A stretch of 56,641 bases of DNA from an uncultured beta proteobacterium (GTDB lineage: Bacteria; Pseudomonadota; Gammaproteobacteria; Burkholderiales; Burkholderiaceae_C): the NCBI GenBank assembly GCA_903930255.1, contig CAIYYA010000339.1:1-56641 (forward strand), given 5' to 3'. Positions 50,898 through 56,641 of this stretch are shown piece by piece (position 1 is the first letter of the stretch; every line of letters starts with the position of its first letter). Made by a program: the position numbers and the translations under genes. The notes below the pieces were generated by a model. The model had not been told where the DNA came from, did no database searches, and saw only the letters and a list, made by a program, of their open reading frames with translations.

Positions 50898-53039
50898 TCA
50901 AACCAATGTGTTCAGCCAGGCTTGCAATGCAGCACCATGCAGCGGGCGGCTGCCCAGGTAGCCCTGCATCACGTCGCAGCCGAGATTTTTAAGAGTATCG
51001 CGCTCGGCTTCGGTCTCAATGCCTTCTGCCGTAACCAGTAGATTCATACCATGACCCATCTCGATCATGGTTTTGACCAGACGCTGGGTGCCCGGCAAGT
51101 CTTCAATATGGGTGACAAAGCTGCGATCGATTTTGAGCTCGCTCACCGGCAGTTGCTGCAGGTATGCCATTGAAGAATACCCAGTGCCAAAGTCATCTAT
51201 CGAGAGCTGAATGCCCATGTCTCGCAAGCGGTGCAGCAAAGCAATGCTGCTGTGGGCATCTTGCATCAGACCACTTTCCACAATTTCCAGCCGCAGATGT
51301 TCGGGGCTGATGCCGTGTTGCAGCATGAGTTGTTGAACCCGCTGCCCAAAGCTGGCATCCTGCAGATCTCGCGTGCTGACGTTGATGCTCAGGCTCAAGT
51401 TGGGGTGACTGTGTTGCCAGCGCGCCAGGGTTTGCATACCCTGCTCAAGCATCCAGTTGGTAACGAGCGGTATGGCACCGGTTTGTTCGGCAAACGGCAC
51501 GAACTCGGCAGGCGAGATAAAACCCCGTTGCGGGTGCTGCCAGCGCACCAGCGCTTCTGCTCCAACGGGCAGACCTGTTTGCAAAGAGAATTTTGGCTGA
51601 AGCCACATTTGCAGCTGTGACTCAGCCACCGCTAGGCGCAAGTCAGACAATAGACCTAGGTGTGTAAGACGTGCGGCTTCTTGAGCCGGGTTGTACCAAG
51701 CAAAGACTTGAGCCGCTTGTTTGGCAACGTTCAAAGCAACTTCGGCGTTGCGCAACAGGGTGATGACCGGCACATGTTCGCCAGCAGGCGAGTCGGCCAG
51801 TCCAAAAGCCAAGCTCAAGTCAACACTATGGCCACCGCACAGCACCGGCAGGGCGGTCGCCTGCATCAACTGCTGGCGCAGGGATTCAACCGGCGCGCGT
51901 GTGGCGCTACTCATGGCAATGGCAAACAAGCCACCCGAGAGATGGTTCAGTATGGCACTGGCGTAGTCATTTTGAACAAGCAAAACTGCTTTGGCTCGCT
52001 CGGCCAGTATTTTTATCAGCGTATCGCCTGTGGCAAAACCCAAGGTTTCGTTGACTGTTTTCAGACGCGCCAGATCCAGTAGCATCAGCACATTGACCTT
52101 CAAGATTCCATCACCACCTTCGCACTCTTTGAGTAAATACGTGCGGTTGGGCAAATCGGTCAGCGGGTCACGAAACGCCAGGCGCTCGATTTCTTGTTCG
52201 CGCTGGGAGATGGCGCCTGTCATGCTGATCAAGGCTTGAGCCACACGGTTCACTTCTTCGGTGCTGCCGACCACTAACGGACTGATGTAATCGCCTGCTG
52301 CGATGCGCTTGGCAGCTGCTTCAAGCTGTTGCATGGGTTCCACCACGCTGCGTGTGGTGCGCAGTGATAACACCACTGCCAGCGCAACAGCCAGCAGTGA
52401 CAAGGCAGCGCCCCAAAGGGTCAGGTGTTCCAGGCGTTGCTGTGCAGCCCGCACCTGCTCTTCGATGCGCTCGCGCTCACGGTTGACCAAAGCGTTGGAG
52501 AGCTTGAGCAGAGCCGCCAATGCTGGTTGTACCTGATCGGCGAAAGCATGCATCGCTGCGGTGGCATCATCGGCCTCAATTTGATCCACTGTCGCCAAAA
52601 AAGCGCTGAAATAGCTGGCACGAGCAGCTGCGAGCTGTAGCAGGGTCTGCTCTTGTTGTGCGTCACCCAATTGCCCTTGCAAAGAGGCCACGATGCCGTC
52701 AATGCGCCGGTTGCGCTCGTCCACATCGGCATACACCGGCACGCGTTGCTCGCGCGGTGCATTCATCAGGTGCAGCAAGGCCGTGCCTGCGCCCTCGATC
52801 GTGAGTGACATGGATTGCACGCGCAGAAGGCGTTGCATGTCGTGCGTGGCAAAACGCTCGGTCAGGTCGTTCATGGCACGAATATGCCAACTGGCCAGGG
52901 TAAGCGTCAGCAACATCAGGCTGACCAACAAGCCAAAACCCAGTGCTAAACGCATTGACAAACGTCGTGGCCACAGCGCAAACTGGCGCACTGCTTGCAC
53001 GCTGGGGCGGTGGGGAAGGCTGGGCAGGTGGGGTGTCAT
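50898..53039 (-). CDS. Membrane EAL phosphodiesterase with degenerate GGDEF domain
   Basis: 713 residues from ATG 53039; an in-frame TTG at 53078 would add 13. Two membrane segments (about 30-50 and 205-225) enclose a helical periplasmic sensor, followed by HAMP (VVEPMQQLEAAAKRIAAGDY) and a GGDEF domain whose signature is HLSGGLFAI instead of a GGDEF-type site. The EAL domain keeps its catalytic set: EALVRW, SINVS, LEIVESG, IDDFGTGYSS, LKIDRSFV, TAEGIE and QGYLGSRP. Predicted to hydrolyse cyclic di-GMP, with the degenerate GGDEF as a possible GTP sensor. Confidence 0.9.
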   Translation of the reverse strand: MTPHLPSLPHRPSVQAVRQFALWPRRLSMRLALGFGLLVSLMLLTLTLASWHIRAMNDLTERFATHDMQRLLRVQSMSLTIEGAGTALLHLMNAPREQRVPVYADVDERNRRIDGIVASLQGQLGDAQQEQTLLQLAAARASYFSAFLATVDQIEADDATAAMHAFADQVQPALAALLKLSNALVNRERERIEEQVRAAQQRLEHLTLWGAALSLLAVALAVVLSLRTTRSVVEPMQQLEAAAKRIAAGDYISPLVVGSTEEVNRVAQALISMTGAISQREQEIERLAFRDPLTDLPNRTYLLKECEGGDGILKVNVLMLLDLARLKTVNETLGFATGDTLIKILAERAKAVLLVQNDYASAILNHLSGGLFAIAMSSATRAPVESLRQQLMQATALPVLCGGHSVDLSLAFGLADSPAGEHVPVITLLRNAEVALNVAKQAAQVFAWYNPAQEAARLTHLGLLSDLRLAVAESQLQMWLQPKFSLQTGLPVGAEALVRWQHPQRGFISPAEFVPFAEQTGAIPLVTNWMLEQGMQTLARWQHSHPNLSLSINVSTRDLQDASFGQRVQQLMLQHGISPEHLRLEIVESGLMQDAHSSIALLHRLRDMGIQLSIDDFGTGYSSMAYLQQLPVSELKIDRSFVTHIEDLPGTQRLVKTMIEMGHGMNLLVTAEGIETEAERDTLKNLGCDVMQGYLGSRPLHGAALQAWLNTLV

Positions 53040-53147
53040 GGTTGGCGTAGCGATGCTAGGAGCCGCATGGTGTGACAAGACTGGGTGCTGGGATGTGTAG
53101 CCGGTTGGGTCATGGCGCTGGTAGCTCCTGGGTTGTGCTTGGACTGG

Positions 53148-53954
53148 TTATCGAATCAATCGCTGCACGCCGAGCAACAAGCCACTTTGCACCGCCTGTG
53201 TCAGCCAATTGGTGATGTCCCACTCAGTGCCCTCGTCAGCTGGGGTGGCTGACAAAGGCAGTGCGTCTAGTGCGGCACCCAGTGTGTTGTTTGTCAGCAA
53301 AGCGTTGAGCAGGGCATGTTCTAGGGCGCTCGTTTGACGAACACTGGGGATCAGGCCAGTGCGCCAGACCACAGCGCACTCATGTGTACCTGCCTGCAAA
53401 CGCGCACGAGCAGTGTCAAACGACCCATCGTGAGTGGAATGGGCTGCATAAATGCTGGCGACTGGCCAGCAACTCAACAGGGTCTTGCAGCCCGGAGCCA
53501 ACTGCAGCAGCAAATCTGCCGGGTCATGTGTGGCAAGCAGCGCAAAACTGGGTGCATCAACGGTTGCATCAGGTGCAGTCGTTGCGCTGTGCAAGGCCCA
53601 TTCCAAAGCTGCTACATCGCCTAGGTAAGGATGATCCTGCAATTGGCTGCTGCTGCGCACCCAATCGGCGAGTCCATCACCCCATTGCCCCACATCGCCC
53701 CGAATGGGCGGTTGAGCGTGCCAAAGTGCACGCGCTAGCGAAGCAAAACTCTCTTCACCGAGCAATTGCGCGAGCACTGGGTAGGCTGCGTTGAGCGCAC
53801 GAATCGCCAGTTCGTGACCGTTTGTTTGATAGGCTTTTATGCCTCTGGCGCTTGCTGTATATGCATATGCAGCTAGATTATTTATAGCATCGTCTGGTGG
53901 CCAGTCAAACAGAGCGGCGAGCAGTGCTTGCTGTTGGGTGGCTAGATGGCTCAT
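53148..53954 (-). CDS. bufC: Bufferin maturation partner, DUF2063 (HvfC/BufC-like)
   Basis: 268-residue protein of the DUF2063 family, the partner of DUF692/MNIO enzymes in bufferin synthesis. An N-terminal helical domain ([48 protein letters not shown]) matches the family, and the C-terminal part (about 170-268) would be the RiPP-recognition-like domain. Residues 21-42, [20 protein letters not shown] and neighbours, are encoded by a copy of the dispersed palindromic repeat. It overlaps bufB by 4 bases. The partner is thought to bind the precursor and present it to the MNIO; this is family knowledge. Confidence 0.88.
53831..53893. repeat. Dispersed palindromic repeat, copy G, inside a coding sequence
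   Basis: On the minus strand it reads TGCTATAAATAATCTAGCTG, then CATATGCATATACAGCAAGC and GCCAGAGGCATAAAAGCCT. The TGCTATAAA, TAGCTGC, CAGCAAGCGC and GAGGC blocks match the intergenic copies. It lies in frame, without stops, in the 5' part of bufC. Confidence 0.55.
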
Positions 53955-54868
53955 GTGCTGACTTTGCTTGATTCGGCGTGTTGTGCCGCTATGATCTCAT
54001 CGGCCTGAGCCGCTTCGTCCAATAGCACCTGAAGTGCCGGAATGTCGGTGTCCCATTCGATCAGTGTTGGCACTGCACCAAAGCGCTCGATGGCGTGTTG
54101 AAAAACCTGCCAAACCTCGGGGCAGACGCGACTGCCATGGTCATCAATCACAATCTCATCAACTGGGTCTTGGTTGCTGCTAGGGAGCACGTGACAATGT
54201 CCGGCCAGATGAATTTCACCCACATCCCGTGGGTTAATGGCATTCAGCCAAGCCTTGCAATAGAGCACCGGGTCACTGATCGATCCGCTGATTTGCGCGT
54301 TGCGCGCGTTCACGAAAATGTTGTTCACATCCACCAACAAAGCACAGCCGGTGCGCTGAGCCAGTGCGGATAAAAATGCAGTTTCGGACAAAGCAAACGG
54401 ATCGTCCGGGGCTAGCCACTGGATATAGGCTGAGAGATTTTCAACCAGGAAACGGCGTTGCAATCGGTCTTGCACGTGCTGCACATTGGCACACAGCACA
54501 TGCAACGCCTCTTGGCTGAACGGGATGGGCAGCAAATCAGCGGCATGGATGATGTTGCGACTGGTTTTGCTGTGCCAGGAGCCTCGGGCAAAACTGGCGT
54601 GATCGCTCACGCGCACTGGGTCAATGCGCTGCACCAAAGCTGCCAATTGGTCGAGGTGCCAGTCATCCAGACCCACAGCAGATCCGAGTGATAAGCCCAC
54701 ACCATGCAAGCTGATGTCATAGTGGGCTCGTCCCTGTTCCAGCACCGACAGCGCCGCACCACCCTGGGCAAAAAAATTTTCGGAATGAACTTCCAGAAAA
54801 CCCAGTGCGGGTTTGCGTTCAAGCACATCCGCGTAGTGAGGCTGACGCCAGCCAATGCCGCTTTTCAT
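53951..54868 (-). CDS. bufB: Multinuclear non-heme iron oxygenase, DUF692 (BufB/HvfB-like)
   Basis: 305-residue TIM-barrel enzyme of the MNIO family, which oxidatively modifies cysteines in RiPP precursors (thiooxazoles in bufferins). Candidate iron ligands are in order: LEVHSENFF (H28, E30, N31), [53 protein letters not shown] and LIEWDTDIP. Length is typical. Its start is 1 base after the bufA1 stop and it overlaps bufC by 4 bases, a tight precursor-enzyme-partner operon. Confidence 0.93.
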
Positions 54869-54869
54869 G

Positions 54870-55148
54870 TCAGCTCTTTTTGGGCATCATGGCCTTGGCT
54901 TCGTCCATGCTCATGCCTTTCATCTCCTTGCAAGTGCCTTTGGCAACATATTTCCACTCGCCTTTGTCCATATCCACTTTGGACTGACCCGCGCATGAGT
55001 GCACACCGGAAATACTGGCGCAGTCGTTTTGACCGGCTTTGGCAATGCCAAAGCATTTTTCTTTTTCGGCGGCTACGACTGGGGCTGCTAACAAGGCCAG
55101 CGACATCAAGGTAGCGGCGGTGGATGCGATCATGGTACGTTGGTTCAT
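54870..55148 (-). CDS. bufA1: Bufferin precursor, DUF2282 family
   Basis: 92-residue exported small protein. Signal peptide 1-27 (ending APVVAA), then a mature part with four cysteines in the family spacing: [23 protein letters not shown] and KGTCKEM (C32, C43, C52, C73). In the bufferin family MNIO enzymes convert two of these cysteines to 5-thiooxazoles and the peptide chelates copper in the periplasm. The C-terminal tail [13 protein letters not shown] fits DUF2282. First gene of the bufA1-bufB-bufC operon, with GGAGA ahead of the ATG. Confidence 0.93.
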
Positions 55149-55246
55149 TTAAAAATCTCCAAAAAGTAGTGAATGGTAAAAAACAATTTGACCAGTAAAG
55201 CCAATAACCTCGGCTGTCTGATGATTCAGTGTGGCCTCTGGTTATG

Positions 55247-55278
55247 ATTTAGTCAGAGTAGGCTGAACTTTCTTACAA
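55247..55278 (-). promoter_or_regulatory. Candidate ECF promoter of the bufferin operon
   Basis: On the minus strand TGTAAG, a 17-base spacer and GACTAA lie about 100 bases before bufA1. Such spaced elements resemble ECF sigma promoters and could be read by the divergent sigma factor. The assignment is tentative. Confidence 0.25.
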
Positions 55279-55313
55279 GCTTCGGCAAAATTATTTTCCC
55301 CATCAGGTCAGAC

Positions 55314-55895
55314 ATGATAAACAGCGCAACACCAACCTATGCGGAACAACTTGTTGCGCACCGCGACTATCTGCTGCGTTTTGCTCGCCTGCAACTGCGC
55401 AATGATGCGTGGGCGCAAGACGCGGTGTCAGAGACCGTGCTAGCCGCTTTGAGTAAACCGTTGGCATTTGAAAGCCGATCCCAGCTTAAAACTTGGCTAA
55501 TTGGCATTCTCAAGCACAAGGTGATCGACATGTTGCGCTTGCATGGGCGTGAGATCAGCACAACCCCTGACGGCGCTGAGGAGGATGATCTTCTGGGTTT
55601 GATTGGTTTCGAAGCCGATGGCCATTTTTCCCAAGCACCATCCGACTGGGGTAACCCCGAGCAAGATCTGAGTGGTCGCCAGTTTTTGATGATCATGGAA
55701 GCTTGTACCAATAAATTGCCTGCGATTCAGGGGCGTCTTTTTTTGATGCGCGAATGGTTGGAGCTCTCCAGTGACGATATTTGTAAGGAACTCGGACTGA
55801 CTCCGACCAATCTGTATGTTCAATTGCACCGTGCTCGTTTGCGCTTGCGTGAATGTCTTGAAATCAACTGGTTTGCCAAGCCTGCTACATCATGA
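55314..55895 (+). CDS. ECF-type RNA polymerase sigma factor
   Basis: 193-residue sigma-70 family factor of the extracytoplasmic function type. Region 2 is LVAHRDYLLRFARLQLRNDAWAQDAVSETVLAALSKP with the -10 contacting segment SQLKTWLIGILKHKVIDMLR. Region 4 is LPAIQGRLFLMREWLELSSDDICKELGLTPTNLYVQLHRARLRLRECL, the -35 recognition helix. The linker between them (about 85-125) is long and acidic. It overlaps the anti-sigma gene by 4 bases and is divergent from bufA1, suggesting that it activates the bufferin operon. In related loci such factors respond to copper or other metals. Confidence 0.92.
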   Translation: MINSATPTYAEQLVAHRDYLLRFARLQLRNDAWAQDAVSETVLAALSKPLAFESRSQLKTWLIGILKHKVIDMLRLHGREISTTPDGAEEDDLLGLIGFEADGHFSQAPSDWGNPEQDLSGRQFLMIMEACTNKLPAIQGRLFLMREWLELSSDDICKELGLTPTNLYVQLHRARLRLRECLEINWFAKPATS

Positions 55896-56119
55896 TGCCA
55901 TTTAATCGAACCTGCAAAGAAGTCACGGCTTTGGTTATCGCTCGGGAAGACCGAACACTGCATTGGCCAGACCGACTGGCGCTGCAATTTCATATGGCCA
56001 TCTGCAGCAGTTGCCCAACCTTTGAACGCCAGGTGTTGACTATGCGTAATGCCATGCAGCAGTGGCGCAAATACCAGCAGACTGAAGGCTCTGAGCCAAG
56101 CAAGCAAGACCCAATTTGA
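55892..56119 (+). CDS. Short zinc-finger anti-sigma factor
   Basis: 75-residue cytosolic protein with a zinc-binding anti-sigma motif HMAICSSC (H-x3-C-x2-C) in LALQFHMAICSSCPTFERQV and an upstream cysteine (C8). No membrane helix is present, so it is a soluble ZAS-type anti-sigma factor that could sense metal or oxidants directly through the zinc site. The gene overlaps the sigma factor stop by 4 bases (ATGATG), typical of sigma/anti-sigma pairs. The tail after residue 55 is polar and probably disordered. Confidence 0.88.
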   Translation: MMPFNRTCKEVTALVIAREDRTLHWPDRLALQFHMAICSSCPTFERQVLTMRNAMQQWRKYQQTEGSEPSKQDPI

Positions 56120-56335
56120 TGCAGTTTCATGCATGAACCAACGATTTTTGTGGTTGACAGGAAATAATTGCATGAAATTGCAAAACTTGTCGTATCATGC
56201 GCGCCGTATTGTCTTTTTATAGCAATACGGAGTTTGCGGTGTATGTCAGTCTCGCGTCTGCTTGAATTCTTCAGTGGTTTGGTTGTTGCGGTTATGGACT
56301 CCATCGCGTTTTGAGTTATTTTGAGGAGTCCCTTC
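56120..56335. other. Leader region of the RRM protein gene
   Basis: This 216-base stretch between the anti-sigma and RRM genes holds a perfect 12-base palindrome TTCATGCATGAA at 56126-56137 and a TTGACA box at 56154-56159 with no convincing -10 at standard spacing. A long untranslated leader (about 130-160 bases) is likely if the promoter is near 56154. Long leaders are common in cold-shock-type genes. Confidence 0.35.
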
Positions 56336-56641
56336 ATGGGCAACAAACTTTACGTGGGCAACCTGCCTTATTCTTTCCGTGATGATGATCTGCAACAAGC
56401 ATTTTCAGCTCACGGTACCGTCTCTAGCGCCAAAGTCATGATGGAACGTGACACCGGCCGCTCCAAGGGTTTCGGTTTCGTTGAAATGGGTAGTGATGCT
56501 GAAGCACAAACAGCTATCAACGCCATGAACGGCCAGCAAATCGGTGGTCGCGGTCTGGTCGTCAACGAAGCACGTCCGATGGAGCCACGTCCTCCCCGCT
56601 CAGGTGGCGGTGGATTTGGCGGCGGCGGCGGTGGCGGCTAC
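56336..56641 (+). CDS. RNA-binding protein with RRM domain, 3' end outside window
   Basis: 102 residues visible. A single RRM occupies residues 3-80: RNP2 LYVGNL near 5-10 and RNP1 KGFGFVEM near 45-52, the typical fold for bacterial glycine-rich RNA-binding proteins. The sequence after RPMEPRPPRSGG turns into a glycine-rich tail (GGGGFGGGGGGGY) that runs past the window. GAGGAG lies before the ATG. Such proteins are often cold-induced RNA chaperones; that role is inferred. Confidence 0.92.
   Translation, partial: MGNKLYVGNLPYSFRDDDLQQAFSAHGTVSSAKVMMERDTGRSKGFGFVEMGSDAEAQTAINAMNGQQIGGRGLVVNEARPMEPRPPRSGGGGFGGGGGGGY

Follow-up and report, generated by a model that had tools for sequence, protein, structure and literature searches.

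A bufferin operon of an uncultured Burkholderiaceae_C bacterium and its predicted control by an extracytoplasmic function sigma factor with a soluble zinc anti-sigma factor

Modules in which an extracytoplasmic function (ECF) sigma factor is held by a small, soluble anti-sigma factor are described in Neisseria and Haemophilus (PMC2893595, PMC3240639, PMC7907618), and the anti-sigma factors named for operons that encode DUF2282 bufferins are of the NrsF kind (PMC12452194). The locus considered in this work lies in a 56,641-nucleotide stretch of DNA from an uncultured beta proteobacterium (contig CAIYYA010000339.1 of GenBank assembly GCA_903930255.1), which is called the window at its full length. 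There, an operon encoding a bufferin precursor (bufA), an MNIO enzyme (bufB) and a DUF2063 partner protein (bufC) is read leftward, opposite a rightward pair of genes for an ECF sigma factor and a small anti-sigma factor (Table 1). We propose, with a probability of roughly 0.7, that the bufferin operon would be under the control of a switch of the kind formed by Neisseria sigma-E with MseR and by Haemophilus RpoE2 with HrsE, in which the anti-sigma factor is a cytosolic zinc protein. Both bufferin operons and soluble modules of an ECF sigma factor with a zinc-binding anti-sigma factor (ZAS) were known already; what looks new here is the joining of a DUF2282 bufferin to a soluble zinc anti-sigma factor, for which no precedent was found in a literature search that took in few subscription papers and no supplements.

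All five gene products score above the cut-offs of their Pfam families, and the genes are tightly packed, with a single base between bufA and bufB and overlaps of 4 bases both between bufB and bufC and between the sigma and anti-sigma genes. The operon with these spacings, the ECF sigma gene opposite it, the overlapping gene for a zinc-finger protein of 75 residues and the precursor cysteines C32, C43, C52 and C73 had all been read from the letters in a preliminary description of this DNA; the open reading frame (ORF) list and the Pfam matches bear these readings out, as do the profile searches that it had suggested for DUF2282, DUF692 and DUF2063 (PF10048, PF05114 and PF09836, all over their cut-offs). 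The four-cysteine pattern is present in every one of 91 bufA sequences, the window's counted in, and BufA begins with what, judged by eye, is a Sec-type signal peptide. BufB aligns to PDB entry 3BWW over residues 4-285 and keeps its HG, SDH, EN, DVNN, H-x-AGH, DxHG and E-x-D stretches, which are presumably where the iron ligands sit, while the PDB search returned no match for BufC and none meaningful for BufA. Among NCBIfam models, BufA reaches 25 bits with BufA2 (NF050166), below the equivalog cut-off of 60, and the bufC product stays far below the HvfC cut-off. The four-cysteine DUF2282 precursor and the order precursor-MNIO-DUF2063 are both found at the locus, and its assignment as a Buf1-type bufferin operon is supported by its sequence. 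In Buf1 peptides, the central two cysteines are modified and the outer two are disulphide-bonded (PMC12452194); by analogy, C43 and C52 would be modified in the window's BufA and C32 and C73 would form the disulphide, and both thiooxazole formation and copper binding are predicted for it from published relatives. The genome (4.5 Mb in 377 contigs, 93.7% complete) holds a single MNIO match and a single DUF2282 match, and a plasmid collection yielded 351 MNIO and 66 sigma matches, all below 60% identity, with no close plasmid-borne relative among them. Between the window and one related locus (L003), identity falls from 92% for the precursor to 72% for the MNIO enzyme and 56% for the DUF2063 partner, so that the peptide may be the most constrained part; two others (L195 and L197) carry a tandem pair of bufA genes, every copy with its own GTAAG...GAC promoter.

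The sigma factor scores 278.7 bits against NCBIfam NF009173 (cut-off 255) and 209.7 against TIGR02943 (cut-off 162.2), and the anti-sigma factor 60.1 bits against NF052368 (cut-off 50). Residues C8, H34, C38 and C41 of the latter are invariant in ten anti-sigma sequences, and the arrangement C-x25-H-x3-C-x2-C is present in all 64 distinct anti-sigma factors, including that of the window, with a Cys/His spacing identical to that of MseR (C4/H30/C34/C37) and RsrA (C11/H37/C41/C44) (PMC2893595). In addition, an ORF with HxxxCxxC adjoins the sigma homologue in 29 of 30 loci of the same order, again counting the window's. The preliminary description had seen no membrane helix in the anti-sigma factor, and hydropathy agrees: its best 19-residue mean is 0.49, and the highest among the 64 is 1.32. 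The ECF sigma factor, the overlapping soluble anti-sigma factor and the ligand arrangement that define an ECF-ZAS module are thus all found at this locus; the multi-helix membrane anti-sigma factor that characterizes the ECF16 sigma-F type was not recovered in the window protein by Pfam or hydropathy. A PDB search with the anti-sigma profile gave nothing meaningful.

The pairing of operon and regulator was followed in 91 distinct bufA loci, drawn from genome-contig loci, 60 relatives and 349 family genomes (a bufA match was present in 201 of the 349, part of which were fetched); each locus had a bufA profile score of at least 110, a findable start and a distinct sequence in its last 100 bases, and the set leans to close relatives. 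In alignment A3, the row of locus L278, which was in the wrong frame, was ignored. Comparison of locus order, a check proposed in the preliminary description, places a divergent sigma and anti-sigma pair at 64 of the 91 loci and a sigma gene alone at one, with neither within about 2 kb at 22 and four that were too short to judge. Upstream of bufA, the pattern GTAAG-N16-18-GAC occurs in 77 of the 91 loci and its reversed form in none; in the window, it reads TGTAAGAAAGTTCAGCCTACTCTGACTAA. The offset from GTAAG to CTAA at bufA equals that from GTCAG to CTAA at the gonococcal locus, and the spacing falls within the published sigma-E consensus (-35 GTMAGBWTT, 12-13 bases, -10 CGTCTAAH; PMC2893595), which places a GTMAG-type promoter on an MNIO operon. 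No Caulobacter-type GTAACC-N16-CGAA promoter was found at the window's bufA. Because the promoter motif and the sigma/anti-sigma pair are both conserved, the sigma factor probably drives bufA.

The motif also leads to other genes in related genomes. The longest pattern, TGTAAGAA-N14-16-GACYAA, matches once in the genome itself (none reversed) and 60 times in 42 of 299 family genomes, as compared to eight reversed matches across all 299. The 30 loci listed from those 60 matches lead into bufA (12), MsrP-like genes (4), DUF1223-like genes (3), a DoxX gene (1), a thioredoxin-like gene (1, with a product below its NCBIfam cut-off), genes for ABC binding proteins (2) and other or no clear genes (7); these calls were scanned in part, with agreement for three of three MsrP and two of two DUF1223 products scanned, the DoxX protein and one ABC binding protein. 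The DUF1223 genes stand directly behind the motif at L229 and L240, by Pfam, and at L216, by eye. The upstream region of msrP was read in 31 genomes, namely those of the best 30 loci of 93 matched genomes (100 were searched, one per genus) and the genome itself: the strict motif is found in 12 of the 14 that have the sigma gene and in 1 of the 17 that lack it (p=7.6e-6, shared descent being uncorrected), and a looser pattern that admits GTAAC in 13 and 1 of these, respectively (p=9.0e-7), with a reversed control of 0/31. A further thiol-redox gene appears within the locus itself in relatives, since in 18 of the 21 cases where the sigma gene lies more than 1.1 kb from bufA, a TlpA-like ORF stands between them (two were scanned and are AhpC-TSA/Redoxin proteins); of the other three, L189 and L190 have their longest ORF in another frame and L195 has the tandem bufA. 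GTAAG-N15-19-GAC is found at the start of the gap toward the TlpA-like gene in 14 of 20 such loci (L195 left aside), a match count that stands without a reversed control. The loci with an intervening TlpA-like thiol reductase gene, many with their own motif copy, include L009, L014, L019, L117, L135, L138, L184 and L186.

Sigma homology, promoter spacing, the ZAS arrangement and the co-occurrence of the msrP motif with the sigma gene in relatives argue for a switch of redox type. From these, together with the gene families and the synteny, we infer the following course of events. At rest, the small anti-sigma factor would hold the sigma factor through its Cys3His zinc site. This site would be broken by cytosolic thiol stress, caused by oxidants or reactive chlorine or by an attack of Cu(I) on the zinc thiolates, and the sigma factor so released would then drive GTAAG-N17-GACYAA promoters, those of bufABC here and of msrP, TlpA-like and DoxX genes too in related genomes. 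In BufA, the central cysteine pair would be turned into 5-thiooxazoles by BufB together with BufC, and the exported peptide would bind copper in the periplasm, where MsrP would meanwhile repair oxidised methionines. The msrP gene of this genome may be a target as well.

Several observations weigh against this proposal. The sigma-E of N. meningitidis is unresponsive to H2O2, diamide and singlet oxygen (PMC2893595), and an rpoE2 deletion in H. influenzae is not more sensitive in vitro to HOCl, H2O2 or paraquat (PMC7907618). Six of the 64 loci with the regulatory pair are without the strict bufA motif (a changed -10 in five, GTAAT in one), and 15 of the 22 loci with no sigma gene nearby have the motif nevertheless. 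Within the genome itself, TGTAAGA-N12-16-GACYAA matches once, at bufA, against two reversed matches, and a looser pattern twice against five, its second match being inside the sigma coding sequence; these counts name no further regulon member. The genome's own msrP is preceded by GTAAC and not GTAAG (TGTAAC...CGACTAA, about 20 bases before the start), a variant that could belong to another ECF sigma factor. The msrP query came itself from a motif-bearing locus, the 30 loci being its best matches, and two genomes break the association: G141 has the sigma gene and no msrP motif, G106 the reverse. BufB falls 8.5 bits short of the cut-off of 310 for MNIO_BufB, which is still its best family. Finally, the bufA-type motif occurs in 0 of the 64 sigma upstream regions, which gives no sign of autoregulation, unlike in Neisseria, and does not sustain the preliminary description of the system as self-regulated; a look-alike on the + strand, GTAAA...GTCTGA, was rejected as an autoregulatory site, being present in only one of 24 loci listed, that of the window.

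The persistence of the bufA motif in loci that lack a sigma gene, and the occurrence of the sigma/anti-sigma pair away from bufA, could be taken to mean that the pair is a neighbour without a role for the operon; this is scarcely credible in view of the retention of the divergent pair at most bufA loci and of the manner in which the msrP motif tracks the sigma gene. A second alternative, which was that of the preliminary description, is a copper-specific circuit, where Cu(I) would displace the zinc of the anti-sigma factor in the cytosol and the operon would be a dedicated copper buffer. Growth under copper stress is reportedly improved by bufferins (PMC12452194), gigPABT of Cupriavidus metallidurans, beside rpoQ-rsqA, is induced by copper and gold (PMC10304878), and a cysteine-rich zinc site could conceivably be attacked by Cu(I). 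However, Msr, thiol-redox and DUF1223 genes carry the same motif in relatives, the Haemophilus module is linked to hypochlorite and peroxide, both of which raise rpoE2 expression (PMC7907618), and the Cupriavidus anti-sigma factor is predicted to be membrane bound, a periplasmic signal having been inferred there (PMC10304878). A circuit devoted to copper is therefore rather unlikely.

The association of bufferins with MsrP extends beyond the redox-zinc switch favoured here. GTAAC-N17-CGWA, of the Caulobacter sigma-F type, precedes msrP in 4 of the 17 genomes without the sigma gene and in 0 of the 14 with it, and bufA in 3 of the 22 loci without a nearby sigma gene. The sigma-F regulon of Caulobacter contains two DUF2282-MNIO operons and YedY, of the MsrP family (PMC3511200), and a few EGKCG-type clusters carry oxidored_molyb and ferric reductase genes (PMC12452194). 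Taken together, these data suggest that there is more than one ECF system in which MsrP-family genes and bufferin-like clusters come together. At L137, L143 and L181, bufA has a sigma-F type promoter match with no sigma gene of the window's family within about 2 kb, possibly the trace of a change of regulator. We tentatively suggest, as a possibility that falls somewhat short of even odds, that the bufferins of Comamonadaceae form the metal arm of an envelope regulon for redox and copper repair (bufferin, MsrP, TlpA-like thiol reductase and DoxX) under a cytosolic redox-zinc ECF switch, that a conserved hairpin in the bufA mRNA would add RNA-level control of precursor supply, and that elsewhere an unrelated switch of sigma-F type would run the pair of bufferin and MsrP, which would imply that this pair of effectors outlives its regulator.

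The hairpin in question is an inverted repeat that lies 5-9 bases beyond the -10 GAC, where the predicted bufA leader starts. An anchor was available in 81 leaders, of which 80 were long enough for a stem scan; 26 of the 80 have a stem score of at least 7, whereas 200 shuffles gave a mean of 2.2 such leaders and a maximum of 7, and arms anchored further down the leader gave 1, 0 and 1. Covariation was scored on paired columns chosen by hand from alignments in which MAFFT misplaces some arms: A4 holds all 38 leaders with an ACC-like 5' arm, and A1 the 32 that are left when L189, L178, L155, L144, L142 and L132 are dropped by eye. In A4, 78.8% of cells pair, as compared to at most 41.7% when the arms are slid, 23 cells are changed on both sides (7.8 in shuffles) and the covariation score is 0.197 (0.091), values that none of 500 shuffles reached for pairing, both-side cells or covariation; for A1, the corresponding figures are 87.5% against 46.6%, 23 against 6.7 and 0.246 against 0.092. 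Other measures are unremarkable: as many pairs altered in both partners arise in 112 (A1) and 193 (A4) of 500 shuffles, and as many further pair types in 82 of 500 on A1, with 18 of 500 on A4. RNAalifold draws four pairs on A1, with little covariation energy, and none on A4, and the region 54800-55400 has no Rfam match at E up to 1. Leaders of four relatives, picked for their clear stems, fold with z-scores of -4.45, -1.90, -3.08 and -1.27; that of the window, folded alone, leaves the arms unused (z -0.81). The hairpin is thus likely to be real in the family and is doubtful in the window genome. The repeat might instead be the DNA operator of a second regulator, or a product of chance; its place just after the -10 element would suit the action of a repressor, and RNAalifold leaves all 38 leaders without a pair when they are aligned together. 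This explanation is unlikely, since stems greatly exceed those of the shuffles, their spacers vary from 11 to 33 bases, and the arms change together, unlike an operator with fixed half-sites.

Downstream of bufC, no DoxX gene was found before the next gene, 69 bases on, which confirms an absence recorded in the preliminary description. DoxX is a core component of Buf1 clusters, though not of every one (PMC12452194), and among 52 loci with sigma and anti-sigma genes, bufB and more than 3 kb of downstream sequence, doxX is present in 41 and missing from 11. A GGDEF-EAL gene accompanies doxX in 5 of these 41 and is present in 4 of the 11. Since L003, L195 and L197 have doxX followed by the GGDEF-EAL gene and the window has the latter only, the arrangement suggests that doxX was lost in the window's lineage; the earlier characterization of the set as minimal is better read as such a loss. 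One DoxX-family gene of the genome lies on another contig; its product is 33% identical to a bufferin-type DoxX, and no promoter motif is nearby. At L003, an ORF labelled 'fam19' was set aside, having no Pfam match, and a profile search put DoxX there in another frame. The family of the HAMP-GGDEF-EAL gene that follows bufC has further members close to the operon in several relatives, and a link to cyclic di-GMP is possible. After the anti-sigma gene, positions 56321-56641 (+) encode what by eye is an RRM-like RNA-binding protein; such a gene stands at the same place in L003, and its family occurs in 6 of 25 sorted loci.

Table 1. Position and assignment of the bufferin operon, its putative regulators and control elements, and the adjoining gene in the window.
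Feature	Position	Strand	Basis or remark
bufC, 268-aa DUF2063 partner protein	53148..53954	-	PF09836, 51.8 bits, 1e-13
bufB, 305-aa MNIO enzyme	53951..54868	-	PF05114, 296.9 bits; NCBIfam MNIO_BufB, 301.5 bits
bufA, 92-aa DUF2282 (Buf1) precursor	54870..55148	-	PF10048, 87.8 bits, 4.7e-25
ECF sigma factor	55314..55895	+	Sigma70_r4_2, 46.4 bits; r2, 38.7 bits
75-aa soluble ZAS-type anti-sigma factor	55892..56119	+	zf-HC2, 28.2 bits; C8, H34, C38, C41
Predicted ECF promoter of bufA, TGTAAGAA...TGACTAA	55249..55277	-	motif match, conserved in relatives
Predicted leader of bufA mRNA	55149..55245	-	arms ATAACC 55240-55245 and GGTTAT 55204-55209; weak in the window
HAMP-GGDEF-EAL protein	50898..53078	-	neighbour; operon membership not claimed

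This locus offers a testable promoter, zinc switch and leader RNA in environmental bacteria. If the same sigma factor runs both bufferins and MsrP, damage to the envelope by copper and by oxidants would be handled jointly. Neisseria sigma-E, Haemophilus RpoE2 and Caulobacter sigma-F would then all exemplify a single pairing, in which thiooxazole peptides go with the repair of methionine.

For the comparison with known systems, GigP and GigA of Cupriavidus are taken to be a DUF2282 and a DUF692-like protein, respectively, and CC3252 of Caulobacter to be NrsF. Caulobacter sigma-F/CC3252 and S. meliloti RpoE7 resemble the window in that MNIO-DUF2063 operons lie under an ECF sigma factor (PMC3511200, PMC6180224); however, CC3252 is a six-helix DUF1109 protein, unlike the soluble anti-sigma factor of the window, and the Caulobacter promoter, GTAACC-N16-CGAA, differs from that of bufA, the sigF promoter being of the same class as its targets (PMC3511200). 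The gigPABT/rpoQ-rsqA locus shares with the window a small exported precursor with four cysteines, the DUF2063 protein GigB and a divergent ECF sigma gene, and differs, beyond its anti-sigma factor, in the presence of a DoxX-like GigT; that RpoQ drives gig is unproven there (PMC10304878). The RpoE2/HrsE module of H. influenzae may be likened to that of the window: its anti-sigma factor is cytoplasmic and has 67 residues, its regulon takes in msrAB and a DoxX-like gene, and the rpoE2 promoter is not self-activated, which parallels the motif-free sigma upstream regions in loci of the window type; the term 'DUF2282' is absent from that text (PMC7907618). In Neisseria, sigma-E (NMB2144) and MseR (NMB2145) belong to a single autoregulated operon, NMB2140-2145, whereas loci of the window type have divergent operons, and the regulon includes the methionine-sulfoxide reductase MsrA/MsrB (PMC2893595), where MsrP is the putative target in relatives of the window. 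The gonococcal precursor ORF, gonophorin, belongs to the EGKCG group (PMC13097082) and has no Pfam match, in contrast to the DUF2282 precursor of the window. Nevertheless, MseR is a short cytoplasmic zinc anti-sigma factor with the same ligand spacing, the gonococcal sigma factor is 39% identical to that of the window with the same promoter spacing, and beside its gene lie a zf-HC2 ORF and an MNIO gene whose product is 33% identical to BufB.

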